From: Asterochloris sp. CNOR1
Taxonomy: Eukaryota > Chlorophyta > Trebouxiophyceae > Trebouxiales > Trebouxiaceae
Assembly: GCA_963969365.1 (NCBI GenBank)
Contig: OZ017764.1
Span: 46,057 to 110,056 of the forward strand
Reading direction: 5' to 3'
Length of the DNA: 64,000 bases
The position numbers were made by a program, and so were the translations under genes. Position 1 is the first letter of the stretch; the number at the start of each line of letters is the position of its first letter. Positions 5,158-62,595 of this stretch are shown here, in pieces. The notes under the pieces were generated by a model that worked only from the letters and a program-made list of their open reading frames with translations, was not told the DNA's origin and did no database searches.

Positions 5158-6270
5158 ATGAATAAAATCTCGGGAAAAAAATTAAATCTCTTAAAAACCT
5201 TGGAAATCCTAAAATCCAATCAGTTTGTATCCTTTTACCATTTCAACAACCTGTCCAAAAGAGAATGGGATACAATCAAGCTTCAACTTAGAAAGATTGA
5301 AACACAAGATATCCCTTCCAACGAAAGCGAAGGGGGGGACAAAGAAAAAAAGGCAAGGACGCAAGTATTGCCTTTGCTGACCGCAGGTAGCACGCGCAGC
5401 AATTTATTGCTTGAACGTACAGCACTTGTGTTGCCTCGCACCAAAAGCAATTTGTTGCTAAAGCAAGTGCCTAGCAATAGCAACAAGTTGGTTAAGGGTG
5501 TTACAACAAAAAGAAAGTTAAAAGGCGCAGAAGTTGAACTTTTAGTCTTAAAATCAAAAGCCGTTGTTAAGGCCCTGTATCCGTTTCTCTTTTATTCCCA
5601 GAGTTGTCTTGCTTCGCACGGGGTTGAGCAAACAGTTCATACTTATCCTCTTGCTTTGCGTGGTACTAGTACTACGTGCGAAGCAAGTCGCGAAGCAATA
5701 AGCAAAGCAATAAAGCAAAGGGATCGCTTTGCGACCGAAGGTAGTGACCCGTTAAGCATAACCGTTGCTACGCGACTTGGTGACCGTGACCGTGACCCTT
5801 CGCACGGTCACCGTCACGGTCACACCCTTACGCACAAGCAATCCCTTTTAAATGTAAGCGATTCGCTGTTACCGGAAAAAAGCGCGTGCTACCTGCGGTC
5901 AGCAAATAACCAATTAGGGTTCACTTTAAACCCTGTGCCTGCGGCAAGAATAAACTCGCTAATAAACGCTTTTTATCTTATAGAGGGGCCTACCCTTCTA
6001 GTAGGAGCTTCTACGATAGAAGGGTTTAAAGAATCTGCCAGGCAACTAGAAAAGGAAAAAAGTTTGGTCTTTGTAGGTGGTGTTCTTGAAAATCAATTCA
6101 TTAACCACCTAGATTTAAAAGATTGTTTAAAAACGTCTCTTCCAACCTCTGCAAATTTGTTGCAAACTTTGAACTACCCTTTAATGATACCCCCTCTTAA
6201 TTATTACTCCAATAAGTTGCTTTTCTCGCTCCAAAAAAGGCAAGAATCGTTGAAAAAGGAGGAACTTTAA
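5158..6270 (+). CDS. rpl10: Ribosomal protein L10 (uL10m), expanded by repeat insertions
   Basis: A 370-residue frame. L10 anchors the L7/L12 stalk on the large subunit and is usually about 160-175 residues. Three separated blocks look like L10: residues 1-47 (FVSFYHFNNLSKREWDTIK, the first helix and strand), about 120-148 (AEVELLVLKSKAVVKAL, the V-K-N-x-L region) and about 266-370 (EGPTLLVGASTIEGF, then LVFVGGVLENQ and the C-terminal helices). Between them lie peptides read from the interspersed repeats, including a (GTGACC)3 hairpin at 5780-5823 translated as DRDRDPSHGH. No stop or frameshift occurs. Assignment rests on motif order judged by eye; rpl10 is known from several plant and algal mitochondria. 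Confidence 0.75.
   Translation: MNKISGKKLNLLKTLEILKSNQFVSFYHFNNLSKREWDTIKLQLRKIETQDIPSNESEGGDKEKKARTQVLPLLTAGSTRSNLLLERTALVLPRTKSNLLLKQVPSNSNKLVKGVTTKRKLKGAEVELLVLKSKAVVKALYPFLFYSQSCLASHGVEQTVHTYPLALRGTSTTCEASREAISKAIKQRDRFATEGSDPLSITVATRLGDRDRDPSHGHRHGHTLTHKQSLLNVSDSLLPEKSACYLRSANNQLGFTLNPVPAARINSLINAFYLIEGPTLLVGASTIEGFKESARQLEKEKSLVFVGGVLENQFINHLDLKDCLKTSLPTSANLLQTLNYPLMIPPLNYYSNKLLFSLQKRQESLKKEEL
5780..5823. repeat. GTGACC-arm hairpin inside rpl10
   Basis: (GTGACC)3, loop CTTCGCAC, then GGTCAC-CGTCAC-GGTCAC. The arms pair fully except for one base in the middle unit. It is translated in frame with rpl10. Confidence 0.9.
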
Positions 6271-7023
6271 ACTTCGTGCTGTGCTGTGCTTGGTACGCAC
6301 AAACTTTCAATAGCAATTGCGTCCTTGCTTCGCACAAGCAACTTGTTGCTAGTGCGAGCTTTGCACGCAATTGCTTCGCACGTGCAAGTAGTTGCTTCGC
6401 TTATTGCTTCGCTGTGCGAGCGAAGCACGCAAGAAGTACGTGTAGCAACAAGAGAATTTTGCTTGGGCGCAAGAAGGGGGCAACCGATTAGTTCCGGGTA
6501 TTGCTTTAAATTGCTTGTCCTGATGGTGAAAGCTTGTGCTACGGGTCACAAGCTTTGCGTGCAGAGTAAAGGGATTGCTTTGCGACTTGCTTCGCACGTA
6601 GTGCGTACCATCTTGTTGCTAGTGGTAAGCAATTCATTGCTTCGCTTATTGCGTCCTTGCTTCTAACCGAAGGTATAGCAACAAGTTGCTCGTGCAAACT
6701 TCGGTTAGAAGGGCGGAAGAAGTACGTAGTGCGAACCATCACAAGCAATTGCTAGTAGTGCTGTGCTACCTTCGGTTAGAAGGGCGGAAGAAGGGCGCAA
6801 AGAACACTTGTAAGCGAAGCAACACTACCTGCGGTCAGCAAAGCAAGGCAAACATCTTAATACGCACGTGATAGTACGCACAAGCAATTGCTTGTGTTGG
6901 TGCGAAGGGTCTTCTACCTTCTTCCGCCCTTCTAACCGAAGTTTGCACAGCAAAGCAAGATCAGCAACAAGTTGCTTTAGGTAGCACAACAATACAAAAA
7001 TAAACTATTTTCTAAACTTCAGT
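6271..7023. repeat. Repeat spacer upstream of trnI(gau)
   Basis: No gene. It is composed of GCTTATTGCTTCGC, AAGGGCGGAAGAAG and AGCAACAAGTTGC modules. A long open + frame (6286-6666) is entirely repeat-derived and is not proposed as a gene. Confidence 0.8.
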
Positions 7024-7062
7024 GGGCATATAACTCAGCAGGTTAGAGTATACGCCTGATAA

Positions 7063-9380
7063 TTGTGGTCGGAGGCAGATTAGAATCAGTAAAGGTAAAT
7101 TCCTTTCACATTGGCACATAATGTGTAAATCACCAGCTCTACTCATTTTGCGAAAGCAATAGGGGGTTGTAACATGCTGGGAAGATGTTGTGGTAAAATA
7201 GTACTTGCTTTGCATGTAAAGGATGCTACGCACGTGACCGTGACCGTGACCCTTCGCACGGTCACGGTCACGTAGTGCATCCTACTAGCAACAAGTTGAT
7301 GCAGAGCACGGTCGACTTGCTTCGCACGTAGTAGTCGTTGCTTAAAGCTTGTGGTACGCTTTATTGCTTTGCACTTGCTCTTTGCCTGTGGCACGACCTT
7401 GCTTCGCACTTGCTCTGCATCACTAGCAACAAGTGAATTTGCATAAGCAAATCTAATCTAAGTTTGTATTTTTTTGCGATAACACATCTTCGTGAAAAGT
7501 AGGTATGGTGAAAGCGTAATTGTTTGAAATCTGAATGCAAATCGAGGTTTGCGTGCCTCCCCTAAGAGTTAGGGTCTTAATTGTGTTTTCTTTAGCTTAT
7601 CAGAAGAAAACAAGTGTTCAACATTAAGAGGTGCCCTTTAATTAAGGGTTCAAGCAGCAACAGGAACACCTAACCCTTTTTTTCCTAAGGAGATAAAACA
7701 GGTAAATGCCTTGCCTTTGGTACGCACATCTTTGTGCCTACCAAAATTCTCTTGTTGCTAGGAATGTATTTAAAGCTTGTTGCAAGTGTTGCTTAAAGCT
7801 TGTGCTTACCATCACTAGCAACAAGAGAATTGTCTCTATCTCAGGAAATGGATTCTAATATAACCCGGCGGGCTCACTAAAGCGAGAAATAGTATCTTTA
7901 AGCAGTTTTCATGTAAAAAGCACGTGTTGCTCGGCACACAAAAGCTTGCTCCCTGTTGTTGCTTGGCTTATTGTAAGCCAAGCAACACGTAGTGCTGCCC
8001 TTGCTTGTGCTGTGCTGACCGCAGGTAGTGTTGCTTGGCTTACAATAAGCGAAGGGCGCAATTGCTTCGCACGCGCAAGTAGGTAGCACAAGCAGGCAAG
8101 AAGCAACACTTGTTCGAAAACAACTTACTTATTGCTATGTGAGGAGAAGAATCGGGAATCACATGATTTTGAAAGGTAATCTCTTTCAAGCGTAACTCCT
8201 TAATTTTGTTGTTTTTATCGTGTTCCTGTTCTTTATCAATCTTTTTAGAGAAGTTAGGAGGGATAAAAACGCACAGCGAGAGCACATACAACAAAGAAAA
8301 GAATATATGCGTCGTGTTCTTTGCTTAAACAACACAACCCTTAAGCAATTGCTGGTAGTGCTGTGCTACCTTCGGTTAGAAGGGCGGAAGAAGGGCGGAA
8401 AGAACACATGTAGAGCAACGGATGCCTTGCACCCTTAAGCACGTGCGTTCCTAGTGGTGTGCTGTGCTTGGTAGGCACAAGGGCGGAATTGCTTCGCACG
8501 CGCAAGAAGCACTTTTGTTTTACACACAAAAGTGTTTTTGTTCTTTGCTTTAAATTGCTTTTTGCTCTGCATTACCCTTGCCCGTGCGAAGCAATTCCGC
8601 CCTTCGCTGTGCTGACCGCAGGTAGTGTTGCTTGGCTTACAATAAGCACAGCACTACCAACTGCTACCTACTTGCTTTTATTGCTTCGCGACTTTTGCGT
8701 GCTTCGCTCGCACAGCACGTAGTAGCACAAGCAAGTGTTCTGATTTACAAGCAACTTGTTGCTAGTGTGCGCAGCACAAGGGTTGTGGTCCGTAGCAAGA
8801 AGCAAGACTCTCTTCTTGCGTGGTACGCTTATTGTAAGCCAAGCAACACTACCTGCGGTCAGCACAGCAAAGCAATTCATTGGTGACCGTGCGAAGGGTC
8901 ACGTGCATACATTTTTTTTGTTTATAAGGGGTTTGCTGCCAAGGATTCTAGGATAAGAAGGGTACATTTTTTGCAATTCAAAATGAAACAGTTGTAAGTA
9001 AAAGCAACATCCTTGGATCCGTAGGAAGGATTGAAGGCACAACTTTTTGTAATAGGCCGCAAAGCAAACTCACGATCATACAAGAATAGCCTTTTTGTTG
9101 AAACAACAAACTCGTCCTTTGCTACGCTTTATTGCTTCGCGACCAAAGAGAATAAAGCAACGCTTGTTGCTCTACTACTCTCTTCTTGCGTGCTTCGCTT
9201 ATTGCTTTGCACGTAGCACAGATCGTGCGAAGCAAGGACGCAATAGGCAAAGTAATAAAGAATCGTAATCTTTCTTCTTATCTAGAGAGCCGTATGCATT
9301 GAAAGGTGCCTGTACGGTTCGGGAAGAGGAGCTTTAATAAGATAAGAGTTGTATCTTACATAGAACCCTCCTACTTTCAT
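7063..9380 (+). mobile_element. Group II intron in trnI(gau), no ORF, filled with repeats
   Basis: A 2318-nt intron defined by exon pairing. It starts TTGTGGTCGGAGG, not the canonical GTGYG, and ends CTACTTTCAT, the same 3' end as the trnR intron. Domain V lies at 9287-9320. Conserved core islands shared with the trnR and trnH introns occur at 7063-7200 (including AACATGCTGGGAAGATG), about 7490-7680 (GGTATGGTGAAAGC; GAACACCTAACCC) and about 8140-8300. Repeat modules separate these islands. No reverse transcriptase/maturase frame is present, so splicing would need proteins supplied in trans (inference). Confidence 0.88.
9287..9320 (+). other. Group II intron domain V (trnI intron)
   Basis: 34-nt hairpin. 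GAGCCGTAT pairs with GTACGGTTC, upper stem GCATT/GGTGC, GAAA tetraloop and a two-base CT bulge. The AGC triad near the 5' end is the catalytic metal-binding signature. Identical to the domain V in the trnR intron. Confidence 0.93.
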
Positions 9381-9415
9381 GCGTAAAGTCGAAGGTTCAA
9401 GTCCTTCTATGCCCA

Positions 9416-10084
9416 AGTAATTAGAGAAACCAGTTGTAAGATATGGTATTGCGTTTTACGTGCAAAGCAATTGGTGAATTCTCTTGTTGCTAGTAGCAAG
9501 AAGCAACACAAGCGTACCAATTGCATTTGTAGGAAGCACGAGGCCGGTCCTTGCTTTACACAAAAAAACACAAGCAGTTGATGCAGAGCACAAGGTTGTG
9601 CTTGTCGTTGCTTCTTGCTCTTTGCGCCCTTCTTCCGCCCTTCGCTGTGCGAGCGTACCACGCAAGAAGGTAGCACGACCTTGCTTCGCACTTGCTCTGC
9701 ATCACTAGCAACAAGTGAATTGAAGGTAACTAGCAACAAGTGAATTGTTACCTTCGGTCAGCAGAGCACAGGCTCTTGGTACCCATCACTAGCAATTGCT
9801 GTGCTACCTTCTTGCGTGGTACGCTCGCACAGCGAAGGGCGGAAGTAGTTGCTTCGCTTATTGCTTCGCACGTATAGCAACAAGTTGCTTTTGCTTGCAT
9901 CACGACAAAAGTCCACGCAACCACTTGCGTGCATCCTGATGCGCAGCACAGGACGGGTCACGTAAAGGTTTTACTTTGTCGTGGTACGTACTTCGGTCGA
10001 CCCAATTCTCTTGTTGCTAGTAGGATGCATAAGGAAACAATACATTAAGAAAAAACACATAAAAAACAAGAAAAAGAAACATCT
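9416..10084. repeat. Repeat spacer between trnI and rps3
   Basis: No gene. It carries CACTTGCTCTGCATCACTAG modules related to the 213-bp duplicated unit. The last 60 nt before rps3 are A-rich and unique. Confidence 0.78.
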
Positions 10085-12013
10085 ATGGGACAAAAAATTA
10101 ACCCTATCTCTTTAAGGTTGCAAAAGACCAATAGAAGATATGACTCCTCGTGGTACAGTAATTACCATTACGGTGAACTGTTTCTCTTTGATCTAAAGGT
10201 TAGAGATTATTTAGAACGAATCTTGAAACAGCTCAACTATCCAGAGGGCCGTGCTTTAATTAGTCATTTCTCCAAGGGTTCTAAAATAAATCTCTTTGCT
10301 TTTAATCCCACTTCCTCCCGCCAACAAAAATTGGGCGCTTTTGGTTTGAAAGGTGGTGTGCGACTTGGTGCGAAGGGTCACACCCTTACGCACAAGCAAG
10401 AACGCCAGCGAAAACTATCGCCTGTCCTTGCTAAAAGCTTTGAACACAGGAACGAGTTGAAAAGGCCGTTAAAAGCTTTGAGCAGCAAGAGCAAAGCACT
10501 TTCAATCGATCAAGAAGTCTTGTTAGTAAATCAAGTGACCCTTCGCACGGTCACGTGTTCTGAAAAAAAAAACAGTGACCGTGACCCTTCGCACGGTCAC
10601 TTGCTAGGCACAAGCTTTAAGCAAAACGCTAACAAGACTGGCAACAAATGGAATCCTTTTTTACCATACCTTGCGTTGTCTTGGTACGCGTGCGAAGCCA
10701 GAATCCCTTGGCTCGGGATTCTGGCTTCGCACGCGAAGCAGGACAAGTTTTCAATCTTCGATGAGAAAACTCATGGTGATCTTCTTCTACGTGCAAAGCA
10801 AGTCGCAAAGCAAGATGCATTGCTTGTGCCTAGCAAAGCACGTGGAGCCAAATTGAATGATTTGGGAAGAAAAACTTTTTTCTCTGTTAATGATTCCTTG
10901 TTTTTAAAACCTTATCTTTCGTGCGTAGCAAAGCAACAGGCACATAACACGGGTGACCCGTCAAGCACAAGCTTTAAGCAAGTGTTCAATGCGAGCAACT
11001 TGTTGCTATACTACGTGCGAAGCAATAAGCAAAGCAATAAGCAAAGCAAGACGAGCAAAGAAATTCCTTTTTGCTACGCATCAGGTACCAAGTGTGTTCC
11101 TTCTGACTGGCAACACAACGGTTCACACTTGGTACCTTTTTTTGCTTTAAAGGATACTTTGAACCCTTCTTACTTACTCAAAACAAAGAGATTGAGAGAC
11201 TCGTGTTTTGCTCTGCACATGCAACAAGAGAATTGTGCAAGCCTAACACAATGCTTTGCGACCGAAGGTAGTGTTGCTTCGCACACCCGTACGCACAAGC
11301 AACAAGTGGTTTCAAAAACACTCTCTCTTTGGTACCAAAGAGCCCAAGGTTCAACCCACCCTATTTTAGTATCCCTTGGTGCAGATAAGAAAACAATCCC
11401 TTTCTTGACTAAAGAAACTACCTTCGCGACCGAAAAGAGTAAAGCGGTTGCCAAAAGTAACCCTTACGTGACCGTGCGAAGGGTGACCAATAAGCAAAGC
11501 AAAACGTCCGAGCGAAGGGCGGAAAACAGATTGCTCGTACCACTAGCAACAAGTTGCTTCCCGTTAAGCACAAGCTTTAAGCAAAAGCAACAATCATTTT
11601 CTTGCCATAGGCACGAAAACTCTCTTTATAGATGTCACGTAGAAGGCGTGTTGGACCAACAGACAGGAAGCTCAGTGAAACTGGTACCTTTTCAAGTGTC
11701 TACAGAAAAGCAAAGTGCTTTGTTCTTGGCTCAAGAAGTGGTTTACTTTCTGGAGAAAAGAGTTTCTTTTCGAAAGATAAAAGACCAAATCTTAAAGGAA
11801 TTGAAAAACAGTAAAATCATTAAGGGAGTACGGATTACCTGTTCAGGGCGTGTGGGGGGTAAATCTAAGAAAGCACAAAAAGCTAAAACAGAAACGGTAA
11901 AACAAGGTCAAACCTCCTTGGGTGTTTTTTCCTCGAAAATTGATTTTGCACAAAAGAGTGCTTTAACCAGTTTTGGCCTTATTGGGGTTAAGGTTTGGAT
12001 TTGTTTTTACTAA
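10085..12013 (+). CDS. rps3: Ribosomal protein S3 (uS3m), expanded by repeat insertions
   Basis: A 642-residue frame; bacterial S3 is about 230. The N terminus (residues 1-87) has MGQKINPISLRL and the helical block typical of S3. The C terminus (about 518-642) carries the S3 C-terminal domain with IKGVRITCSGRVGG, a KSKKAQK stretch and the closing GLIGVKVWI. The roughly 430 residues between are largely translated repeats (DRDPSHGHL, SNLLLYYVRSN, FATEGSVASH) mixed with unique segments. Two CTTCGCAC hairpins (10535-10554, 10575-10600) and a perfect 20-bp stem hairpin (10688-10734) lie inside. S3 forms the mRNA entry site of the small subunit. The frame is intact throughout. Confidence 0.93.
   Translation: MGQKINPISLRLQKTNRRYDSSWYSNYHYGELFLFDLKVRDYLERILKQLNYPEGRALISHFSKGSKINLFAFNPTSSRQQKLGAFGLKGGVRLGAKGHTLTHKQERQRKLSPVLAKSFEHRNELKRPLKALSSKSKALSIDQEVLLVNQVTLRTVTCSEKKNSDRDPSHGHLLGTSFKQNANKTGNKWNPFLPYLALSWYACEARIPWLGILASHAKQDKFSIFDEKTHGDLLLRAKQVAKQDALLVPSKARGAKLNDLGRKTFFSVNDSLFLKPYLSCVAKQQAHNTGDPSSTSFKQVFNASNLLLYYVRSNKQSNKQSKTSKEIPFCYASGTKCVPSDWQHNGSHLVPFFALKDTLNPSYLLKTKRLRDSCFALHMQQENCASLTQCFATEGSVASHTRTHKQQVVSKTLSLWYQRAQGSTHPILVSLGADKKTIPFLTKETTFATEKSKAVAKSNPYVTVRRVTNKQSKTSERRAENRLLVPLATSCFPLSTSFKQKQQSFSCHRHENSLYRCHVEGVLDQQTGSSVKLVPFQVSTEKQSALFLAQEVVYFLEKRVSFRKIKDQILKELKNSKIIKGVRITCSGRVGGKSKKAQKAKTETVKQGQTSLGVFSSKIDFAQKSALTSFGLIGVKVWICFY
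10535..10600. repeat. Two GTGACC/CTTCGCAC hairpins inside rps3
   Basis: GTGACC-CTTCGCAC-GGTCAC at 10535-10554, and (GTGACC)2-CTTCGCAC-GGTCAC at 10575-10600. Both are translated in frame (VTLRTVTC and DRDPSHGH). Confidence 0.9.
10688..10734. repeat. Perfect 47-nt hairpin inside rps3
   Basis: GCGTGCGAAGCCAGAATCCC (10688-10707) is the exact reverse complement of the segment at 10715-10734, around a TTGGCTC loop. The outer part contains the common GTGCGAAG unit. The partial motif GGTACGCGTGCGAAGCCAGA also occurs in rps7 near 22358. Confidence 0.93.
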
Positions 12014-13174
12014 TTGCATTCCATTTGTAGCCTGTGCGAATTCTCTTGTTGCTTGTGTTGCTTGGCTTACAATAAGCAATAAGCAAAGGCAAATGGAGCA
12101 AGGACGTACTTTTTGGGCAAATTACAATTCACTTGTTGCTAGTTACGTGCAAAGCAATAAAGGGTACCAAGAAGCAACACGTGACCCAATTCTCTTGTTG
12201 CTAGTAGGATGCACGGTCACGCAATTGCTAGTGCTGCGCTGTGCTACTACCTTCGGTCGACCGTGACCGTGATGCTTCGCACGGTCACGGTCACCAATAA
12301 GCGTAGCAGGCAAGAAAAGCGCAATTGTGACCCAGAGCAAGAAGCAACACGCGCAAGAAAAAAGCAAAAAGCACAAGTAATGGCTTAAGCAACTTGTTGC
12401 TGATCTTGCTTTGCTGTGCGAGCGAAGCACGCAAAAAGGTAGAAGACCCTTCGCACCAAGTGTTCTGATTTACGAGCAGTAGTTAAAGCTTTACGTGACC
12501 GTGCTCTGCATCAACTTGTTACTAGTAGGATGCACGCAATCCCTAGCAACAAGTGAATTGTGCGTAGCAAGACGGGTGCTGTGCTTATTGCTTTGCGACC
12601 GAAGGTAGTATAGCAACAAGTTGCTTTACCATCACTAGCATTCGTGCAAAGCAATTCATTGGTTGCCCTTGTGCAAATTACTTGCGTGGTACGCTCGCAC
12701 AAGCAAGGGCAGCACTTGCTTTGCTCTGCACGCAAAGAACAAAAACACTTGGAAGATAGGAACGGGTCTGCTTTTGCGGCCTTGACACTTGTGTCCTTGC
12801 TTGTGTTTTTTTTACCAAACGGAAGCACGTGGTACGGGTCAAGTAAACCTTCTCCCTACTAGCAACAAGAGAATTTACCAATTTCTAGTGTTGCTTCGCA
12901 TGCAACCACTACGTGACCGTGACCGTGCGAAGGGTCACGGTCAACAAGGATATTTTGCTCTGCTTATTGCTTCGCTGTGCTACCTTCGGTTAGAAGGGCG
13001 CAAGAAGTACGTATAGCAACAAGAGAATTCGCACTACTCTCTTCTTGCGTGGTACGCTTATTGTAAGCCAAGCAACACTACCTGCGGTCAGCACAGCGAA
13101 GCAAGTCGCGAAGCAATCCCTTTGCACCCGTAGCAACAAGTTGCTCGTCAAAAACTAAACCACTTCAAGTTTTC
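12014..13174. repeat. Repeat spacer between rps3 and nad2
   Basis: No gene. It holds a nested unit at about 12180-12222 (GTGACCCAATTCTC ... GGATGCACGGTCAC), an imperfect hairpin at about 12259-12295 (GATGCTTCGCAC loop) and another at about 12912-12941. Confidence 0.8.
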
Positions 13175-14893
13175 ATGTTACAAGATTCAATTAACAAACC
13201 ACTTCTTACTCAGGTGTACGAGTTACCTATTTTGATAAAAAACAATTTCTCCCATTTTTCATTCAATTCTTTGATTTTTGAAAATGATATAAAAGGCGTT
13301 TTTCCAGAGGTTTTCTTGGTGAGTGTTACCTTACTCCTTCTTATGTATGGAGTAGTCCTCACAACCTCAAAAAGTCAAAAGTACCCCCTTTTAGTTGGCA
13401 ATGTGAGTGGATTAAGCCTTCTTTCCCTTTTCTTTGTTTTGCTTTTACTGGCTAACAATCCCCTAAAACACGGGTTTCTGTTTTACAACACCCTTTTCTT
13501 GGATTCATCCACTTTTTTCGCTAAATGGCTAGTGGTTTGTGGCACCTTTTTTAGCCTTTTAATTGCTCTAGATTACATAAAATTAGAAGGGTTAAACAGC
13601 TTTGAGTTTGTGATATTGTACTTGCTTTCACTGTCAAGTATGATGTTTTTGATTTCTTCTGCAGACTTTCTTTCAATGTACCTAGGAATAGAATTCCAAA
13701 GTTTGTGTTTTTATGTGATCGCCGCTTTAAAAAGAGACTCTGAATTTTCTACGGAAGCGGGTTTGAAATACTTTATTCTAGGAGCCTTTTCCTCTGGCCT
13801 TCTTCTTTTCGGTATATCCCTTATCTATGGATTTACTGGAACTACTTCTTTTACGGAGTGTAGCAAGTTGTTTGCTTGCGGTGGCTCTGCCTCTGAATTC
13901 TTTTCCTTCAGGGGATGCCAACTAGGTATGATCTTCATTATAGTAGGCTTTCTGTTTAAGTTAACCGCCTTCCCTTTTCACATGTGGGCGCCTGATGTTT
14001 ACGAGGGAGCCCCTACTCCTGTAACAGCCTTTTTCTCAATAGCGCCGAAAGTCTCTGTGTTGGCAATCTTTGTGCGTTTGTTTTTAGAAGGTTTTTATGA
14101 TTTCTTTCTATCCTGGCAGAAAATTCTTATCTTCTCGAGTATAGGGTCTATGATCTTAGGAGCGCTTGCCGCTATGTCTCAAAACAAGATTAAAAGACTT
14201 TTAGCTTATAGCTCTATTGGACACGTAGGTTACATGCTTGTAGGTCTTTGCTGTGGAACGGTGGAAGGTATCCAAGCCCTTCTGATCTATCTTGTAATCT
14301 ATTTAGTAATCACAGTCAACATTTTTGCGATTATTTTGTTACCTGTGAAAAGAGTGGCAACCCTTGGAAACTCTTCTTATTCCTTAACGCACAACCCAAG
14401 CAAAGGTGTTGCTTCAAATAGAGTTGCTTTGCACCACAAGCAACCTGTTGGAACTTCGGTCGAAGCAGAAACAAAAAGCCCTATCTTGTCGGAGAAGGGA
14501 CGTCTCAAATATACTACTGATTTGGCTCTAATGGCCAAGACAAACCCGTTAGTGGCTTTCAACCTCACTCTTACAATGTTTTCAATTGCAGGAATACCAC
14601 CACTTGCAGGATTTTACAGTAAGGCTTATCTTTTTTTCGCAGCGATGAGCAGTGGACAATTCCTATTAGCTGTTGTGGGTGTTGTAACAAGTGTAATAAG
14701 CTGTTTTTACTACATAAGGTTAGTGAAAATCATGTATTTTGAAACACCCCGAAATTGGCTATCCTTTAAAAGGGTACCTAAAGAGATAGGAATCACCTTA
14801 GGAAGTTGCTTGTTTTTTCTGCTCTTCTTTATTCTTTATCCATCGCCGCTATATTTGCTTACTCACAAGGTAGCTCTTGTCTTGTCTTTTTAA
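13175..14893 (+). CDS. nad2: NADH dehydrogenase subunit 2 (complex I)
   Basis: A 572-residue multi-spanning inner-membrane protein of the antiporter-like family in the proton-pumping arm of complex I. Family features include LKYFILGAFSSGLLLFG, FHMWAPDVYEGAPTPVTAF, LLAYSSIGHVGYMLVG and FSIAGIPPLAGFYSK. An insertion of about 40 residues (about 399-440) follows ILLPVKR and contains VALHHKQ and TSVEAET, which look like repeat-derived sequence. This is the only clear intrusion into a respiratory gene in the window. The insertion lies in a loop between transmembrane segments. The start at 13175 is the first ATG after a repeat tract. Confidence 0.96.
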   Translation: MLQDSINKPLLTQVYELPILIKNNFSHFSFNSLIFENDIKGVFPEVFLVSVTLLLLMYGVVLTTSKSQKYPLLVGNVSGLSLLSLFFVLLLLANNPLKHGFLFYNTLFLDSSTFFAKWLVVCGTFFSLLIALDYIKLEGLNSFEFVILYLLSLSSMMFLISSADFLSMYLGIEFQSLCFYVIAALKRDSEFSTEAGLKYFILGAFSSGLLLFGISLIYGFTGTTSFTECSKLFACGGSASEFFSFRGCQLGMIFIIVGFLFKLTAFPFHMWAPDVYEGAPTPVTAFFSIAPKVSVLAIFVRLFLEGFYDFFLSWQKILIFSSIGSMILGALAAMSQNKIKRLLAYSSIGHVGYMLVGLCCGTVEGIQALLIYLVIYLVITVNIFAIILLPVKRVATLGNSSYSLTHNPSKGVASNRVALHHKQPVGTSVEAETKSPILSEKGRLKYTTDLALMAKTNPLVAFNLTLTMFSIAGIPPLAGFYSKAYLFFAAMSSGQFLLAVVGVVTSVISCFYYIRLVKIMYFETPRNWLSFKRVPKEIGITLGSCLFFLLFFILYPSPLYLLTHKVALVLSF

Positions 14894-15849
14894 GGTGAAG
14901 CAAGTAAACCTTCTCCCTACTAGCAACAAGTTGCATCCTACGGACCCAATTGCTAGTGTTGCTTTGCATGCAAAGGAATTGCTTTGCTGTGCTACCTTCG
15001 GTTAGAAGCACGCAAGAAGAGAGTAAAGTCTTATAATGTAAACCTTTTTGTAGCAATTGTGTGCATCCTGACCGTGCGAAGGGTCACAGGACGCAACACG
15101 TGTAATATACTTGTAGTGCTGTGCGAAAAAAGCACGCAATTGCTTCGCACGCGCAACAAGCACAAGCAACTTGTCGCTAGCGTTGCGTCCGTAGGATGCA
15201 CAAGAGCAAGAAGAAAGGACATTACGCATCACGCGCGAGTAAATCACAACACTTGGTGACCCGTAGCACAGCACAAGCTTTCCTGTGCTTTGTGATGGTG
15301 AAGCAACTTGTTGCTAGTAGCACAGCACAACCTTCAAGCAAGTGCGGACCAAGTAGGGTCAATGCTTCGCACGTGATGCAGAGCAAGAAGGGTCACGTAA
15401 AACAAAGGACAGGACGGGACAAAACACACGTCTTACTATAGGCTTGTGTGACCCGTAGCAAGAAGCAACACTTGCTTTGTGAGCAAAGGCAAAAAACAGT
15501 TGCTTGCCTTCTTTGCCCCCTTTTTCCGCCCTTTTTTCGCACAGCACTACAAGCAGACGAAAAAAGCGACCCTACGCACCCGTCCGTAGGATACAATTGC
15601 TTTGCACTTGCTACGCACAACCTTTGCTAAAAGATTTTCGTGACCCGTGACCGTGCGAAGGATCACGGTCACGCAAGACTTGTGTGCGAATTCTCTTGTT
15701 GCTGATCTTGCTTTGCGACCCAAGGTAGAAGTGACGGTGATGGTGCGAAGGGTCACGGTCACCAATAAGCGTAGCAAGACGCAACACGTTGCTTCGCACA
15801 CAAGTTGCTTATATTAGGTAACCAAATAACACACAAATAAAAAACTCTT
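14894..15849. repeat. Repeat spacer between nad2 and rpl16
   Basis: No gene. It contains a TCCTGACC-GTGCGAAG-GGTCACAGGA palindrome at about 15065-15091 and GTGACC hairpins at about 15646-15673 and 15733-15761. About 35 nt of unique AT-rich sequence precede rpl16. Confidence 0.8.
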
Positions 15850-16257
15850 ATGTTAACGCCTAAAAGATCAAAATATCGTAAACAGCAAAAAGGTAGATGT
15901 ACGGGTATCAAAGAAAATACTAGCACCTTACAGTTTGGGCGGTATGGTTTAAGGTCTTTAGAACCAGGACGGATCAGTGCAAGAGTGATAGAAGCTGTCC
16001 GCCGAGTAATGACCCGAAAATTCAAACGGACAGGGCAAATCTGGATAAGAGTATTCCCAGATCATCCGGTTACCGCAAAACCAGCAGAAGTGAGAATGGG
16101 AAAAGGAAAAGGTAGCGTTTCCTATTGGGCCTGTAAAGTACAATCTGGCCAGATACTCTATGAGATGGATGGGGTTTCCCTACAGACAGCGAGAAAGGGT
16201 TTTGCTTTAGCTTACCATAAACTACCAATTAAAACCGCTTTTACCTACCAAGAATAG
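15850..16257 (+). CDS. rpl16: Ribosomal protein L16 (uL16m)
   Basis: 135 residues, the normal family length (about 135-140). L16 binds the large subunit near the A-site tRNA elbow. Diagnostic stretches are [16 protein letters not shown] at the N terminus, [16 protein letters not shown] (about 37-52), [20 protein letters not shown] (about 61-80) and [12 protein letters not shown] (about 81-92). There is no repeat-derived insertion, in contrast to most other ribosomal-protein genes here. Confidence 0.97.
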
Positions 16258-16418
16258 CAAAACAAAGCAAACGGCTTTTAAAAGCAACGTCTTGCTTCTT
16301 GCTCTTTCCGCCCTTCGCTTTTGGGAACCTTTATTGCTTTGCACTTGCTCTTTGCCTGTGGCACGACCTTGCTTCGCACGTAACTAGCAACAAGTTCCTT
16401 AACCATCACCTGATTTTT

Positions 16419-49902: not shown

Positions 49903-50293
49903 TAAAAGCTTGTGATGGTGACCGTGACCGTGCGAAGCATCACGGTCACAGGGTGCGTTTTTGCTTTACTCTTCTTTGCTTTATTGCGTAAACCTACCCG
50001 TGCGAAGCAATGAATTGCTTGTGCTACGTGACCGTGACCGTGACCGTGCGAAGGGTCACGGTCACGTAGCACGCAAGAAGTACTTCGTGCAAAGCAAGAT
50101 CAGCAAGTGTCCCTTGTTGCGTCCTTGCTTGTGTTGCACCCTATGCTGACCTTGTAAGCGAAGCAACACGTAAGGGTACAAACCGATGCACAAGAGCAAG
50201 AAGCAAGGACGCATTTGCTTATACCACAACCTTTAAGCAGAAGATTGGTAATAGATTCGTTTTGTGGTTTTATATCTCGCAATTATAAAGGCT
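49903..50293. repeat. Repeat spacer between rrn5 and the unidentified ORF
   Basis: No gene. Hairpins at about 49918-49948 (GTGCGAAGCATC loop variant) and 50029-50066. The last 60 nt are unique AT-rich sequence. Confidence 0.75.
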
Positions 50294-51058
50294 ATGATTT
50301 GTATTGTTCTTTCTCTTTTAAATCTACTACAACCTGTTCTTGTGGAACTACTTGGCTTGGTGGTATTACCAATGGACCACCAGTCACTGTACGTCTCGCT
50401 TTTGCTTCGCACGTGTACCTGCTCTTTGCTTTTAGCAAAGTGCGGCCTGTGTTTTTTAAGTACAGGAAGATTGTGTTTTTTTAGCAACACTAACAATATT
50501 TTAGAGTACGGTTTAATTCTAACAAAGCCAACATTCTTAACCGATACATCAATCTTAATAGAGAACCAGCACGCAAGTCTCGCACCCGTGATTTGCTCTA
50601 CACACGGTGTAGAAGAAACCAGAGGTCGCAGAGTGTCCCCTTTTATAACAATGATAATACGTGTCTTTGGCGGTAAGGGTTCTACTGAAGAAATTTTAAA
50701 GCTTGCGGTATGTGCTGAATTGTTGTTGTTAATAAACCTACTATCTTTTGCCTTTTTTCTACCAATAAACAAAGAGTACCTTGACGACAAACTAAGCAGG
50801 TCGACCCTACGCACGTGGTTACAAAAATGGGTTAAAACCACCAATACCGATACCAATATCAATACCGATACCAATACCGATACCAATACCAATACCAATA
50901 CCGATACCAATACCGATACCAAGAAGAGTGAAAAAGAAAAGAATAGTTTTTTTTTAAAGACTCCACTTTTTCAAGGGAAAGAGAAAGAATTTCGTGGGGT
51001 ATATTATTATCGGCCCTTTTGTTGTGTTTTGCTGTGTTGTATCTTATGTGGCAAATAA
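50294..51058 (+). CDS. Unidentified ORF of 254 residues with hydrophobic segments and an (NTDT)n tract
   Basis: I do not recognise this protein. From the ATG at 50294 (GTG at 50264 is an alternative) it has a hydrophobic N terminus (IVLSLLNLLQPVLVELLGLV), a central part including IENQHASLAPVICSTHGVEE and ITMIIRVFGGKGS, a strong hydrophobic segment (LKLAVCAELLLLINLLSFAF, about 143-162), an N-T-D-T tandem tract (about 183-209) and a short charged tail. It lies on the coding strand in a slot where a membrane-protein gene could sit. A 229-codon minus-strand frame overlaps it and one repeat module (GCTTCGCAC) is inside, so reality is not certain. A diverged complex I, ATPase or protein-export subunit is possible but unsupported. 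Confidence 0.45.
   Translation: MICIVLSLLNLLQPVLVELLGLVVLPMDHQSLYVSLLLRTCTCSLLLAKCGLCFLSTGRLCFFSNTNNILEYGLILTKPTFLTDTSILIENQHASLAPVICSTHGVEETRGRRVSPFITMIIRVFGGKGSTEEILKLAVCAELLLLINLLSFAFFLPINKEYLDDKLSRSTLRTWLQKWVKTTNTDTNINTDTNTDTNTNTNTDTNTDTKKSEKEKNSFFLKTPLFQGKEKEFRGVYYYRPFCCVLLCCILCGK
50840..50920. repeat. Hexanucleotide tandem repeat (ACCAAT/ACCGAT)n
   Basis: About 13 hexamer units, in frame with the unidentified ORF (Asn-Thr-Asp-Thr). Unlike the GTGTTG tracts in rps4 and rps7 it has no complementary arm nearby. Confidence 0.92.
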
Positions 51059-52325: not shown

Positions 52326-53039
52326 ATGAAAAAAGAAACTAAAGTACAAAGTCTTGGTCCTACCTACAGTCAGCAGGCAGGTAGCACACAGCAAGAGAAA
52401 AAGCAACTGTCTTGCGTGCTACTCCCTTCGGTCGGGAAGCAAGTCAGCAAATTTAAAGATAAAAGATATCAGTCAACTAGATTTTCAAACCTTTATTCTA
52501 AAGGGTTTGTTCAAGACTTTTATTTAAAAAAGGGTTTCTCTTGTCAAAACACTCACCATTTTCCAAAAATAAACAAATTGGTTGTCAATAAGAGTTCTAA
52601 AGAGTTTGTTAGAGACAGGTTGGAAATATTGCCCTCCTTTCTCTCACTCCTCCTTGTTACCAACCAGAAGATTCTTCCAAGATTAGCTTTAAAGTCCATA
52701 GCTGGGTTTAAATTGCGGGAAAAACAAATTATTGGTTGCAAAGTAACTCTACGAAAATTTAAAAGTTTAGAATTGCTGGAAAGAGTCACGCAATTAGTTT
52801 TGCCCCTCTCTCGAGACTTTTCAGGGATATCAGCAACAAGTTTTGACTTTTACGGTAACTTAACCATAGGGTGTAAAGAGAGTTTACTTTTTCCAGAATT
52901 AAGTGAAAACTTTGAGTTCTTTGAAAGAGTAGGAGGGTTTGACCTTTGTCTTTCCATTTCTCCAGGAAACTCTGTGTTCAAACCTTCAAGTAAGGAAAGC
53001 GCTTTACTTTGCACCGGAATGCAACTCCCTCTGTCCTAA
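52326..53039 (+). CDS. rpl5: Ribosomal protein L5 (uL5m)
   Basis: 237 residues from the ATG at 52326; bacterial L5 is about 179. L5 binds 5S rRNA in the central protuberance, and rrn5 is encoded 2.5 kb upstream. Motifs are FPKINKLVVNKSSKE (about 78-92), TNQKILPRLALKSIAGFKLRE (about 115-135), GCKVTLR (about 139-145), LPLSRDFSGIS and SFDFYGNLTIGCKESLLFPEL (about 176-196). The extra N-terminal 45 or so residues include repeat-derived GPTYSQQAGSTQQ and CVLLPSVGKQ. The rest of the domain is uninterrupted. Confidence 0.93.
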   Translation: MKKETKVQSLGPTYSQQAGSTQQEKKQLSCVLLPSVGKQVSKFKDKRYQSTRFSNLYSKGFVQDFYLKKGFSCQNTHHFPKINKLVVNKSSKEFVRDRLEILPSFLSLLLVTNQKILPRLALKSIAGFKLREKQIIGCKVTLRKFKSLELLERVTQLVLPLSRDFSGISATSFDFYGNLTIGCKESLLFPELSENFEFFERVGGFDLCLSISPGNSVFKPSSKESALLCTGMQLPLS

Positions 53040-53576: not shown

Positions 53577-55539
53577 GTGCGATCCGAGGAAGAATTCAAA
53601 TCGTTAAGAGGTTTTTTTTGTACATAAGTTGCAGTACTTCTTGCTTTACGTAACGGTTTAAACCTGTCTTTGATAGTAAAGAATTGGCTTTTTTTATTAA
53701 AAAATAAAAACAACACCTGTTTTGCTTATGGTATTGGTACTACTCTCTTCGGTTGGGAAGCAAGTACCTGGCAATACACATAACAAGTTGGTTCAGCAAG
53801 AAGACAATTTCCTTTTGTATGCAATTAAGAACCTTTTCACACCCAATACAGAGTGTGTAAATCAACAGCTCCGCTTTGAACGAAAGAGGTAAAAGCAAAA
53901 ATAGCATGCTGTAAAGAGTGAGATCGACCCCCAAGCAAGTGTCCCTTCTTGCTACTAGCAACAAGTTGCTGAAGCAATTGCAATTGCAATTGCTATTGCG
54001 TTCTTTAAATTGCTTGTGCGCAGCAGGTTTACTCTCTTCTTGCGTGGTACGCTTATTGTAAGCCAAGCAACACGTACCACAGATCGTGCGAAGCAAGGAC
54101 GCAAGGACCAGGACATAAGGGTTATTACTCTTTAGACAAAAAGGTATGGTGAAAACTGAATTGTTTGAAGTCCAAGTAGAGGCTGGGGTTACTGACCCCT
54201 CCACTTGTTTAGGAGTGATGTAAGTATCTAAGGAGCGTGCAACGCAACAATAGAAAACTCTTTGCCCTAAAAAAGAGGATAAGGTTTTCAAGGTTAAAGA
54301 GTCACATTACCTTTGAAAGTGTTGAAACCTAAAGCCACAATTTGATGTTGTTAAATACTGAAAAGAACACCTAACCCTTTAATAAGGAAAGAACTATCAC
54401 TTGCTGATGGTACGCATGTGCTGTGCTGTGGGAGAAAAGGTTTCAATAGCAACAAGTTGCTTTACTACCTTGTCCTTGCTTTGCACGGAAGTGCTACGCG
54501 ACCTGTAAGCGAAGCAACACGTACCACAGATCGTGCAAAGCAAAGACGCAATAAGCGCAAAAGTCGCGAAGCAACACGTACCAATTTATTGCTTGTCGTT
54601 GTTGCTTTACTCTCTTCGGTCGACCCGTCCTTGTTTTGCACGGATGCACCAATAAGCAAAGCAATACCAAGCAACTTGTTTTGCGTGACCCTTCGCTTAT
54701 TGCTTTGCGACCCAAGGTAGTACCAACACGTGCAAACTACTTGCTTTTATTGCACTCATCCTGACCGTGCGAAGGGTCACAGGACGCAACACTTGTGACC
54801 CAGAGCAAGAAGGGACACGCACAAGCAATGCGCCCTTGGAGAATAGGAACGCACAGCACAGCACGAGTTTCTTGGAACGTACGCAAATCAGACGTTCTAC
54901 TTTCCTTAAGATTTGACTGAAACCGGATTTGCTCACTAAGGAAAAGATTTTCTATGTGAGGAGAGAGGCGAAGATTCTATTACTTTTCATTCCCCGTGAC
55001 CCGTGCGAACGGTGTAGAAAGGGCAACCTTGTGGTACGGGTCAAGTGTTATTTGAAACCTTTTTTCGCAGTACCAGCAAGTGTTCCTACCTTTAACGAAG
55101 TGGTAGGTTTTATGCAAAGCAAAGATTGCCACCTTACCAGTTATGCAGCCTAGAAGCTTTTTGTGCTAATTGCTAGGGTCGACCGAAGTACGTACCACTA
55201 ACAATTGCTGTGCTGTGCTGACCGCAGGTAGTGTTGGTTGGCTTACAATAAGCGTACCACGCAATTGCTTCGCACGCGGAAATAGTTGCTTCGCTGTGCA
55301 AACTTCGGTTAGAAGGGCGGAAGAAGGTAGCAACAAGGATATTTTGCTTGAACAAGGGAATGGAAACAAAGATTTCTTCAAAAGTAGGCCTCAAGAAGAC
55401 TTTTTTAATTATTGAGAGCAGTATTACCTTATTTCTAGGTAATGCGTTGACCCCTCCTTGTTTTTAGAGTCTTTAGAGAGCCGTATGCGTTAAAAGGCGC
55501 CTGTACGGTTCGGGAACGAGCAGTTATGTTTAGTTTCAT
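53577..55539 (+). mobile_element. Group II intron in trnH(gug), 2.0 kb, no maturase
   Basis: Starts with canonical GTGCG (GTGCGATCCGAGG) and ends TAGTTTCAT. Core islands match the other tRNA introns: AATAGCATGCTGTAAAGAG (about 53909), GGTATGGTGAAAAC (about 54143), GAACACCTAACCC (about 54364), TATGTGAGGAGAG (about 54953) and domain V (55478-55511). This is the least expanded of the three. No reverse-transcriptase or maturase frame is seen; a 74-codon frame at 54929 has no recognised motif. Confidence 0.89.
55478..55511 (+). other. Group II intron domain V (trnH intron)
   Basis: GAGCCGTAT/GTACGGTTC lower stem, GCGTT/GGCGC upper stem, loop AAAA instead of GAAA, CT bulge. Compared with the other two copies, an A-to-G change in the upper stem is compensated by T-to-C (A-T to G-C), supporting selection on pairing. 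Confidence 0.93.
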
Positions 55540-58123: not shown

Positions 58124-58199
58124 CAAAAGAGAAGCTGGTCTTGCTTGTCCTTGTGTGATGAAACAAGTTGGTTGGGCGCAGAGAACACAAAACAAGTCA

Positions 58200-59800: not shown

Positions 59801-59821
59801 TTTTTTAAGAACAAAACTATA

Positions 59822-59878
59822 CTCACGGTATAAATTTACTTTTATCGTGACGGTTCTTATAAATTAGTATACCGTGAG
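59822..59878. promoter_or_regulatory. AT-rich inverted repeat upstream of the 145-residue ORF
   Basis: CTCACGGTATA (59822-59832) pairs exactly with TATACCGTGAG (59868-59878). The 35-nt loop is AT-rich. It ends 35 nt before the ORF start and is unlike any repeat unit elsewhere in the window. A regulatory site or a scar of insertion are both possible. Confidence 0.5.
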
Positions 59879-59913
59879 CTTCTTAATCTATAAACCAAAC
59901 AAAATGTATCATT

Positions 59914-60351
59914 ATGGTAAAAAAATTAAGACAACCAGTTAATATGCAAGAGCAATTAACTGATACATCCTTTTCTGAAATTTTGGAACTATGTTTAGAC
60001 CACCCCTTAATACGGGATGATTTTTACTTTATAAATGACAAAGATAAAGAGAAAAGAGTAGATCCAGTAAAGGCTAGTCAAGTTTTACTGAAAGAAACTT
60101 ATTTAAAGTACATTCGTATCTGTATCAATACTAAGACAAGTTACATGTGTGATCCCTTGAAAGGTATATATGGGCCACTAACAAAAAACGGAGTAAAAGT
60201 GCTTCTAACTAACATAATAGGAAGAGTGGAAGTAGAAGAATTACTAAAACCCAACTATATAGACCAGATTTTCAAAGCACTCAAGTATAACCCAAACGTG
60301 GCTATAAATGGTTATTTATTGTTTAAAGGTTTAAACACAAAGGCCACCTAA
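59914..60351 (+). CDS. Unidentified ORF of 145 residues in an AT-rich, repeat-free island
   Basis: I do not recognise this protein. It is a soluble, charged, mainly helical-looking protein with no membrane segment: MVKKLRQPVNMQEQLTDTS at the start, DPVKASQVLLKETYLKYIR in the middle, DPLKGIYGPLTKNGVKVLL (about 86-104) and IDQIFKALKYNPNVAING near the end. The NGVKVLL...I..I segment vaguely recalls the linker before superfamily 3 helicase domains of plasmid or phage primases, a weak impression only. Codon use is visibly more A/T-rich than the neighbours, no repeat module interrupts it, and flanks return to dense repeats at once. This suggests recent arrival from a plasmid, virus or other organelle DNA (inference). 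Confidence 0.6.
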   Translation: MVKKLRQPVNMQEQLTDTSFSEILELCLDHPLIRDDFYFINDKDKEKRVDPVKASQVLLKETYLKYIRICINTKTSYMCDPLKGIYGPLTKNGVKVLLTNIIGRVEVEELLKPNYIDQIFKALKYNPNVAINGYLLFKGLNTKAT

Positions 60352-61431
60352 AGCTTTATGTGCTTGCTACTTGGGCCCAACCAACTTGTTTTCCTTTGCT
60401 GACCGCTTGTGTTGCGTCTTGCTTTGCTGTGCTGACCGCAGGTAGTGTTGCTTGGCTTACAATAAGCGAAGGGCGGAAGAAGGTTGCTTCGCTGTGGTAC
60501 TATTACCTTCTTGCGTGCTTCGCTCGCACTAGCAACAAGTTGCTTGTGCGAAGCAAGGACGCAATAAGCAAAGCAATAAGCAGAGGGCGCAAGAAGAGAG
60601 TATAGCAACAAGTTGCGTCCTTGCTATTTCCGCCCTTCGCTCTTGGGAACCTTTATTGCTTTGCACTTGCTCTGCATCACTAGCAACAAGTGAATTGAAG
60701 GTAACTAGCAACAAGTTGCGTCCTTGCTTGTGCTACCTACGGTCAAGCAAGTACCCATCACTAGCAACAAGTTGCTTTGCACAAAAGCAAGAAGCAATCC
60801 CTAGCAACAAGTGAATTGTGATGGGTACTTGCTTTTATTGCTTCGCTATGCTGACCACAGGTAGTGTTGCTTGGCTTACAATAAGCGTACCACGCAAGAA
60901 GTACGTAGCACAAGCAATTCATTGCTTCGCACGGGTAGGTTTACGCAATAAAGCAAAGAAGAGTGGAGCAAGCACTTGGTGACCGTGACCGTGCGAAGGG
61001 TCACCGTCACAATCACGTGCGTATCATCTTGTTGCTATACTCTCTTCTTGCGTGGTACGCTTATTGGTGACCGTGCATCCTACTAGCAACAAGAGAATTG
61101 GGTCACCGTCGACCGAAGTACGTAGCACAGATCGTGCGAAGCAAGGACGCAATAAGCAAAGCAAGGACCAGCAGTAGGGTCACGCGTAGCAAACGGAAAA
61201 CGCAACTTTACGTGCTTTGCACTTGTGACTCATCCTGACCCTATGCACAGGACGCAAGAAGGCAAATAAAGCAATTGCTGTGCTGATCGCAGGTAGTGTT
61301 GCTTGGCTTACAATAAGCGAAGGGCGGAAGTAGTTGCTTCGCTTATTGCTTCGCTGTGCCGTAGGCAAGAAGTACGTATAGCAACAAGAGAATTTTGCTT
61401 GAACAAAAACATAACAAACCCTGAGAGATTT
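60352..61431. repeat. Repeat spacer between the 145-residue ORF and rps2
   Basis: No gene. Three GCTGACCGCAGG-type units lie at about 60430, 60850 (one base changed, GACCACAGG) and 61283 (GATCGCAGG). A hairpin lies at about 60980-61011 and a nested AGCAACAAGAGAATT unit at about 61068-61106. Confidence 0.8.
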
Positions 61432-62595
61432 ATGAAGCCCAATCTTTTACAATCCATTCTTCCTTTTCTCCTATCTTCGCGCTCACATTTAGGACAAAGG
61501 GCCCAACCTCTTTGGAGTAAAAAGGGGATTGACTCGTCTTCTGTATTTTCTGTTCTAGGAAAAAGAGAAAAACTATTTCTTACTAACCCCTTGGTTACAT
61601 TAAAGGGTCTTTTAAAGAGCTTACGTGCCGTCCAAACGGTATCTAATTACAATGGTTCTATTTTGATAATAAACACAAATCCTTCTCTTTCCCTTTTATG
61701 TGAAAGGTTTTCGTTCTTTTCTTCCCTAAATAAAGTTGGTTTTGCTACCCTTATTGGTGACGGTGACCGTGACCCTTCGCACGGTCACGGTCACGTAAAG
61801 AAGGCCAATCTCAAGCAAGTCCGAAGGAATGTTAATGTAAAGCAAAACCAAACAGCTGCTGTTATGGCGGACAGGCAAAAGGCGAGAAATGAAACACCTC
61901 CAAATAGACTAAAGGTTGTGGTAGGTGATCAAAGCTTTAAGCAAGTCAGCAAAACACTCTCTCTTGAAAATGAAAAGAGTAGGAATTTTAGTGGAAAAAT
62001 CTTTTTTTGTAACGAGAAATGGACGGGAGGTCTTTTATCAAACTGGAAAAAGGTATCTAATTCTGTGGAAACCTTTGACAGGTTCTCTAAGGCGTTTGGT
62101 CCTTTCTTGCGTGAAAACAAGATACAGTTTTCTACTTACAAAGAGATGAAGAAAAGGTACAATGGCCTACTAGAGTTTCAATTGAGAAAACTTAAAGAAG
62201 AAAGCTTATTCCTGGGCGCAGATGCGAAGCAATCCCAAAGCAAACATTTGCTAAAAAAAAACACTATAGTGCAGAGCAAAGTACTAGCAACAAGAGAATT
62301 GGGGAAAAAAAAAGAGCGAGTAGACAAAAAGAATTTTAATGAGAAATTACTTGGGACAGGAAACTTTAATGAAAAGCCAGACCTTATATTTCTAATTAAT
62401 TGTAATGAAAATGCGCACGTTTTGCAAGAGGCTGCCTCTTTAAAAATCCCAGTTATAGGTATTACAAACACGTCAACACATCAAACAGGAATAACATACC
62501 CTATCCCTGGAAACAGCGAATCTGCTGAATTTGTTTTTTTCTGTTTAAAGTGGGTGTCAGCTATTTCTACTGCTCCTTCCCACTTTTCTCTTTAA
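61432..62595 (+). CDS. rps2: Ribosomal protein S2 (uS2m), expanded by repeat insertions
   Basis: 387 residues from the ATG at 61432; bacterial S2 is about 235-240. The open frame upstream to 61303 is repeat-derived. S2 joins the small subunit late, at the back near the mRNA exit. Blocks seen: HLGQRAQPLWSKKGID near the N terminus (the H.G...W.P motif), NYNGSILIINTNPSL (about 71-86), EKWTGGLLSNWKKVS (about 194-208, the RW.GG.LTN motif) and the C-terminal PDLIFLINCNENAHVLQEAASLKIPVIGITNT (about 315-346). Insertions at about 109-180, starting with a GTGACC hairpin (GDRDPSHGHGH type), and at about 262-310 separate them. Frame intact. Confidence 0.9.
   Translation: MKPNLLQSILPFLLSSRSHLGQRAQPLWSKKGIDSSSVFSVLGKREKLFLTNPLVTLKGLLKSLRAVQTVSNYNGSILIINTNPSLSLLCERFSFFSSLNKVGFATLIGDGDRDPSHGHGHVKKANLKQVRRNVNVKQNQTAAVMADRQKARNETPPNRLKVVVGDQSFKQVSKTLSLENEKSRNFSGKIFFCNEKWTGGLLSNWKKVSNSVETFDRFSKAFGPFLRENKIQFSTYKEMKKRYNGLLEFQLRKLKEESLFLGADAKQSQSKHLLKKNTIVQSKVLATRELGKKKERVDKKNFNEKLLGTGNFNEKPDLIFLINCNENAHVLQEAASLKIPVIGITNTSTHQTGITYPIPGNSESAEFVFFCLKWVSAISTAPSHFSL

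Follow-up and report, generated by a model that had tools for sequence, protein, structure and literature searches.

Short hairpin repeats in open frame within mitochondrial ribosomal-protein genes of the green alga Asterochloris sp. CNOR1

Introduction

We analysed a stretch of 64,000 nucleotides from the green alga Asterochloris sp. CNOR1 (contig OZ017764.1 of assembly GCA_963969365.1; hereafter, the window, whose own numbering is used throughout), in which short hairpin repeats occupy not only the spacers but also the coding sequences of seven mitochondrial ribosomal-protein genes. Within these genes the repeats sit between conserved protein blocks, and none introduces a stop codon, an absence that stands out against a resampling null. 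We consider it likely, on the sequence evidence presented below, that these repeats are translated and retained as loops or extensions at tolerant sites under the filter of selection. The mitochondrial ribosome of this alga would then probably carry long loops made partly from translated repeat DNA.

In the scenario that we favour, short hairpin repeats with an 8-base core (CTTCGCAC or GTGCGAAG) and, in some copies, arms of hexamer units would be mobile and spread through the mitochondrial spacers, landing also in genes. There, copies would persist only at expandable sites, namely inserts and extensions of the proteins S2, S3, S4, S7, S11, L6, and L10 and, rarely, a membrane-protein loop (in nad2). 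Genic copies would be transcribed, translated, and kept in the assembled mitoribosome as largely unstructured loops or extensions, presumably without function of their own, while selection would remove the copies with stops or frameshifts and perhaps those read as hydrophobic peptide.

Results and discussion

A repeat-rich mitochondrial genome

The window contains nad1, nad2, nad4, nad5, nad7, cox2, cox3, atp1, atp4, atp9, and 13 ribosomal-protein genes. We also detected 11 tRNAs, a 5S rRNA, and three group II intron domains, and this whole set identifies the window as a gene-rich mitochondrial genome. The nad, cox, and atp names, except those of nad2 and atp4, were assigned by reading the translations and not by search. 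All genes and palindromes located below are on the forward strand.

Counting both strands, 40.7% of the window is made up of 12-mers with five or more copies; three dinucleotide shuffles of the same sequence yielded no 12-mer reaching five copies. The non-genic DNA is covered to 61% by 14-mers present at least three times. The commonest repeat module is the octamer CTTCGCAC or its complement GTGCGAAG, with 79 and 92 copies, respectively, on the forward strand versus about one of each expected. In either orientation, the octamer core forms the loop of 39 complete palindromes with the plan (GTGACC)n, core, (GGTCAC)n. Nine of them lie in coding sequence and the repeats are thus common to spacers and genes. 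For instance, one of the nine coding copies, with a CTTCGCAC core, is found inside rps7 (21709-21746), and the longest spacer copy, identified by pattern search and RNA folding, adjoins the 3' end of the same gene (23120-23163). Two palindromes with (GTGTTG)n arms, present only in rps4 (16855-16915) and rps7 (20515-20588), have the longest stems around the octamer core: 23 perfectly paired bp in the first (16862-16915) and 24 bp in the second (20533-20588). Their predicted RNA folds reach -55.1 kcal/mol in each case (over 16845-16925 and 20500-20600). The palindromes also gave matches to microRNA models of Rfam; these were far below the gathering scores and we took them as chance hairpin matches. 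As a separate observation, the same 35-bp tandem array, with 2.5 copies of its unit, is present in the spacers at three places (26255-26342, 44858-44945, and 49215-49302), which points to the copying of longer blocks.

Repeats lie outside the conserved protein blocks

At least 50 bp of repeat were found in the coding sequence of seven of the 13 ribosomal-protein genes and in none of the ten respiratory genes (Fisher P = 0.0075). The seven are rps7 (759 bp), rps4 (531 bp), rps3 (459 bp), rpl10 (259 bp), rps11 (237 bp), rps2 (128 bp), and rpl6 (118 bp), and they are 1.6 to 5.6 times as long as their E. coli counterparts. An earlier note on this DNA, made from the letters alone, had named all of them as repeat carriers; it had added the N terminus of rpl5 (237 aa; 52326-53039), a gene that turned out to be nearly repeat-free, with only 27 bp. 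The remaining ribosomal-protein genes (rps12, rps13, rps14, rps19, and rpl16) likewise contain between 0 and 27 bp of repeat. Nearly all of the genes listed in that note as repeat-free do have 0 bp (nad1, nad4, nad5, nad7, cox2, cox3, atp9, rps12, rps13, rps14, and rpl16), the exceptions being atp1 and atp4 with 12 bp each. We also recovered the single small loop insertion described for nad2 (572 aa; 13175-14893): about 50 residues (approximately residues 389-441, positions 14339-14497) inserted at the junction between two parts conserved with plant Nad2, in a gene with 15 bp counted as repeat. Since every gene has repeats nearby on both sides, at a distance of 126 bp or less, neighbourhood does not explain the repeat-free genes. 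The counts thus agree with the idea that repeats invade ribosomal and spare respiratory genes, but the divide is not simply that one, because six ribosomal-protein genes, those of compact proteins, are nearly repeat-free and nad2 has accepted an insert.

To locate conserved blocks, we used hidden Markov model (HMM) profiles of bacterial proteins; those for S2 and L10 consisted of a single E. coli sequence each. In the six genes that could be mapped in this way, repeats account for only 6 of the 817 conserved codons, versus 683 of the 2546 other codons (P about 1e-83). With a looser mask (12-mers present three times), 22 conserved codons were touched. The repeats therefore do sit between conserved blocks, as had been proposed. 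The related claim that they amount to hundreds of codons holds for the inserts as a whole but not for the recognisable repeats, which make up 27% of the non-conserved codons, most of the extra length being unique sequence. As to whether this unique sequence might be decayed repeats, repeat-associated 9-mers occur in the non-repeat inserts at a density of 0.0121, compared with 0.0070 after codon shuffling and 0.0105 in the spared genes.

In rps3, rps7, rpl6, and rps2, the inserts are bordered on either side by conserved blocks that the profiles recognised in frame, and for rps3 and rps7 also in order. The conserved ends of rps3 (642 aa; 10085-12013) enclose an insert at approximately 10238-11653; the KH domain of S3 was not recognised by the profile. 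In rps7 (1006 aa; 20088-23108), an N-terminal extension precedes a first block (20940-21050), a long insert (21051-22778), and the C-terminal block (22779-23108), and in rpl6 (275 aa; 25376-26203) the N-terminal block (25406-25498) is separated by an insert (25499-25834) from the C-terminal one. None of 200 shuffles reached the HMM score of the N-terminal block in either S7 or L6. Three blocks follow one another in the expected order in rps2 (387 aa; 61432-62595), at approximately 61528-61731, 61960-62076, and 62296-62595, and both gaps contain repeat tracts. The first block is matched by the mitoribosomal uS2 of Polytomella; one of 200 shuffles also matched the S2 N-terminal profile. In rps11 (314 aa; 23940-24884), a repeat-bearing N-terminal extension up to about 24533 is followed by the conserved S11 domain, and in rps4 (739 aa; 16419-18638) repeat-bearing stretches flank an S4 block (17163-17543). 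Finally, rpl10 (370 aa; 5158-6270) has its repeat tracts of at least 15 bp within 5372-5906. We assigned this gene by synteny, because it comes next after rps19, an order reported in all Trebouxiophyceae studied except two (PMC6547736).

Open reading frames across the repeats

As the earlier note had stated, the seven repeat-bearing genes are free of stops: we counted none in 3733 codons, compared with 234 in one and 242 in the other of the two alternative sense frames (3726 codons each), and none in the 767 repeat codons. All 93 genic repeat tracts are open, versus 73.1 +/- 3.7 (maximum 84) in 2001 resamplings of spacer repeat tracts of equal length placed in random frame and strand. The same was observed for tracts having no 12-mer in common, with 38 of 38 open versus 31.2 +/- 2.2 expected, a value reached in none of 5000 simulations. 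In addition, with codon scores trained on the genes with few or no repeats, the pooled insert codons scored highest in the reading frame.

Stop-free inserts disfavour splicing and skipping, as removed inserts could carry stops. The inserts or their repeat elements might nonetheless be removed from the RNA, as unrecognised introns or by some other excision, or be skipped by the ribosome like the byp elements of Magnusiomyces capitatus, a possibility that we regard as improbable. It draws on the strong hairpins predicted for the elements and on the precedent of the byps, GC clusters within coding regions of mitochondrial DNA over which translation jumps (PMC8811140, PMC5009743). Whether mitochondria of other organisms also bypass sequence in frame has been put forward as an open issue in a paper that states, with regard to in-frame hopping, that no examples are known (PMC5009743). 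The likeness to the byps extends to the palindromic nature of the elements and their position in mitochondrial coding regions. However, byps break reading frames and are skipped, at 81 positions in 12 of 15 genes (PMC5009743), whereas here all tracts are open, without a single stop, and the respiratory genes are nearly free of them. By this one defining feature, the only one tested, the Asterochloris repeats are not a byp system.

The lengths of the elements bear on the same question. Perfect stem-loops of the nine coding (GTGACC)n palindromes measure 20, 20, 20, 40, 32, 20, 28, 42, and 32 bp, so that all but one (that of 42 bp) are not a multiple of 3 and most single elements could not be exactly lost or skipped without a frameshift. 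This argument against skipping is modest, as chance alone would give about six such lengths among nine and it is uncertain where the elements truly end. The lengths of the tracts modulo 3 (0, 1, and 2) are distributed as 38, 25, and 30. We also considered that a repeat unit multiple of three might be the cause of the frame safety, and rejected this in part: gain or loss of a hexamer unit in the arms keeps the frame, but whole elements are mostly not multiples of three. As for introns, Rfam models gave no match from rps3 to rpl6 (10000-26300) at E up to 1 and none in rpl10 or rps2 at the gathering score; thus, no group I or group II catalytic core was recognised in the inserts of the seven genes. 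Among the options that had been put forward for the inserts (tolerance by the ribosome, removal, or skipping), the open tracts favour tolerated loops. Taking all ways of disposal together, it is unlikely that inserts are skipped in frame by the ribosome or removed, even as whole in-frame units, from RNA or protein to yield ribosomal proteins of near-normal size.

Hydropathy, phase, and divergence of the inserted peptides

Hydropathy could be compared between frames in 61 of the 93 tracts, the others being shorter than 15 bp or lacking an open alternative frame. In 45 of these 61, the actual reading frame encodes a more hydrophilic peptide than the remaining open frames do on average (Wilcoxon P = 1.7e-5). 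The bias was robust to the omission of any single gene and persisted when only alternatives on the sense strand were considered (40 of 56, P = 0.003). The mean grand average of hydropathy (GRAVY) of the genic tracts is -0.57, compared with 0.04 +/- 0.16 for open spacer repeats (minimum -0.40 of 1000). These values are suggestive of a filter against hydrophobic repeat peptides. The CTTCGCAC core occurs in one phase in 13 of its 15 genic copies. Besides, minimal palindromes with a CTTCGCAC core are coding in 8 of 16 copies (5780-5811, 10535-10554, 10575-10600, within 21709-22604, and 61763-61794), versus 1 of 23 for those with a GTGCGAAG core; despite this orientation bias, each of the two has two open frames according to our own reading.

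We then found no sign of selection on the sequence of the inserted peptide, an explanation that we rejected. In 24 comparisons of genic repeats with their nearest spacer copy, differences fall on codon positions 1, 2, and 3 in 25, 28, and 24 cases (51 nonsynonymous and 8 synonymous codons), and this even spread, with no third-position excess, indicates that the peptide sequence itself is not conserved. Such lack of conservation would also be expected if the genes were decaying, with inserts accumulating freely while functional copies reside in the nucleus, and ribosomal-protein genes do often move to the nucleus. Nevertheless, we consider this very improbable, as there is not one stop in the 3733 codons and the conserved blocks are intact and almost repeat-free. 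Still more doubtful, to the point of being extremely improbable, is that the mitoribosome has put the repeat peptides to some use, such as RNA binding or membrane attachment. The hydrophilic bias would be in line with it, but that bias is not significant in non-redundant tracts (13 of 20, P = 0.12) and a conserved function would sit poorly with the absence of a third-position excess relative to the spacer copies.

Comparison with ribosome structures

Long S3 proteins are known from solved ribosomes, and in one of them the extra sequence is at the same site. The plant mitochondrial uS3m (6xyw, 556 aa) matches at its residues 1-75 and 423-541, leaving between them about 350 residues that fall at the site of the rps3 insert. 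The model of this protein comprises 281 residues in 6xyw but 467 in both 9evs and 9gyt. A large part of the plant insert is therefore resolved in the latter two, which means that such an insert is retained by the ribosome and is not wholly disordered. The 712-residue chloroplast uS3c of 28jw, which we take to be algal, matches S3 as well. A difference from the S3 studied here is that these inserts are not known to consist of genome-wide repeats. For L6, the plant uL6m of solved mitoribosomes is 102 residues long and its match is confined to the C-terminal part of the algal protein, so that the L6 part holding the insert may be dispensable.

From a search of genome contigs with rpl16, the best 80 of 590 relatives, all labelled as bacteria, served as yardsticks. 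MAFFT alignments were built for S7 (13 of 14 loci), S3 (24 of 80 loci), and L6 (24 of 43 loci). Those of S7 and L6 placed the N-terminal block beside the C-terminal one, contrary to the HMM result, and therefore only S3 was folded. Its AlphaFold 2 model, which matches the S3 of solved ribosomes, shows high confidence around residues 30-70 and along most of 511-642, whereas its predicted local distance difference test (pLDDT) score is below 50 over most of 77-509.

The confident parts of this model are the conserved ends, as might be the case if inserts were translated and then cut out or trimmed as protein, the conserved blocks assembling as pieces or being rejoined. Such processing, which would require open frames too, appears quite improbable to us. 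In 9evs and 9gyt, plant uS3m retains its 467 modelled residues, and Pfam searches of the seven proteins (E up to 0.01) retrieved only ribosomal domains and no intein match, intein motifs not having been searched separately.

Several observations weigh against translated and retained inserts as the explanation. The low pLDDT of the S3 insert would also follow from a scarcity of homologues, and the plant uS3m insert seems to be partly ordered. The loss of significance of the hydropathy bias in non-redundant tracts suggests that the effect may reflect a few lineages of copies. The GTGCGAAG cores lack a phase preference (4, 4, and 8 across the phases), and the differences in codon score are small, without P value, and absent for rps11. 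Two of the gene assignments are incomplete: neither the N-terminal nor the C-terminal part of S4 was supported by HMM, and the rpl10 product was unmatched in Pfam, in NCBIfam, and by the L10 profile, the latter a weak negative given its single E. coli sequence. Moreover, in Lobosphaera incisa, palindromes with stems of at least 21 nt interrupt RNA-Seq coverage (PMC4524435). The (GTGTTG)n stems of rps4 and rps7, with 23-24 bp, exceed that level, and if the effect held here the mRNAs of both genes would be cut.

Comparison with known repeat systems

The closest parallel to retained, translated repeats is provided by the GC clusters of yeast var1/rps3, short palindromic repeats mostly found in spacers that also occur in frame in a mitoribosomal-protein gene and alter the size of the protein (PMC8811140, PMC4464245). 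The Asterochloris repeats have the same traits, with palindromes both in spacers and in coding sequence and genic tracts that are all in open frame. They differ in affecting seven genes, in their sequences and organism, and in belonging to inserts of hundreds of codons in which repeats are a minority. By analogy, these insertions may work like the yeast var1 clusters on a wider scale, and a single-gene precedent would widen to a genome-wide pattern.

Dispersed repeats are also present in the mitochondrial DNA of Pseudendoclonium. Among green algae, the LIMP elements of Lobosphaera incisa have the most similar plan, with short-unit repeats, an invariant loop in either orientation, and complementary repeats (PMC4524435), as in (GTGACC)n, CTTCGCAC or GTGCGAAG, and (GGTCAC)n. 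LIMPs are made of AACCA/TGGTT pentamers with a 7-nt loop, whereas the elements described here have hexamers and an 8-nt core and are also genic; the dispersed repeats of the L. incisa genome are termed intergenic (PMC4524435). The organelle DNA of Volvox carteri likewise contains abundant short palindromes nested in one another, reported in spacers and the non-ORF (open reading frame) parts of introns (PMC2670323). The palindromic elements of Rickettsia are similar in being in frame within protein genes, but they are bacterial, measure about 150 bp, and encode a conserved peptide (PMC10969869). Here, the modules are shorter and read in several frames, with a preferred phase for CTTCGCAC and none for GTGCGAAG.

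A literature search, from which most subscription papers were out of reach, retrieved no description of in-frame repeats in green-algal mitochondrial ribosomal-protein genes. If they are translated, they would show, as a natural experiment, how large a load of additional and probably unstructured sequence a ribosome can bear, and non-coding repeats would supply raw sequence to essential proteins in seven genes at once. The proteins that accept inserts (S2, S3, S4, S7, S11, L6, and L10) and those that do not can be compared with mitoribosome structures.

Other features of the window

Searches of viral contigs with the exact hairpin pattern and with nad5 gave no match. A repeat-free ORF of 145 aa (59914-60351, forward strand) is possibly an unrecognised mitochondrial gene; it was unmatched in Pfam (E up to 0.01), NCBIfam, and the PDB sequences (best E 0.25), and its best Pfam hit at E up to 5 was DUF6385 (E 0.02). 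Another ORF (267 aa; 50255-51058, forward strand), with no Pfam or NCBIfam match, has near its end a hexamer (ACCAAT) array that would be translated as TNTD repeats. The product of rps19 (3995-4360, forward strand) has 121 aa compared with 92 in E. coli, the extra residues, almost without repeats, separating two conserved pieces. The group II intron matches are located at 9285-9380, 39030-39113, and 55476-55539 on the forward strand; candidate hosts are tRNA genes, which contain group II introns in some Trebouxiophyceae (PMC6547736).

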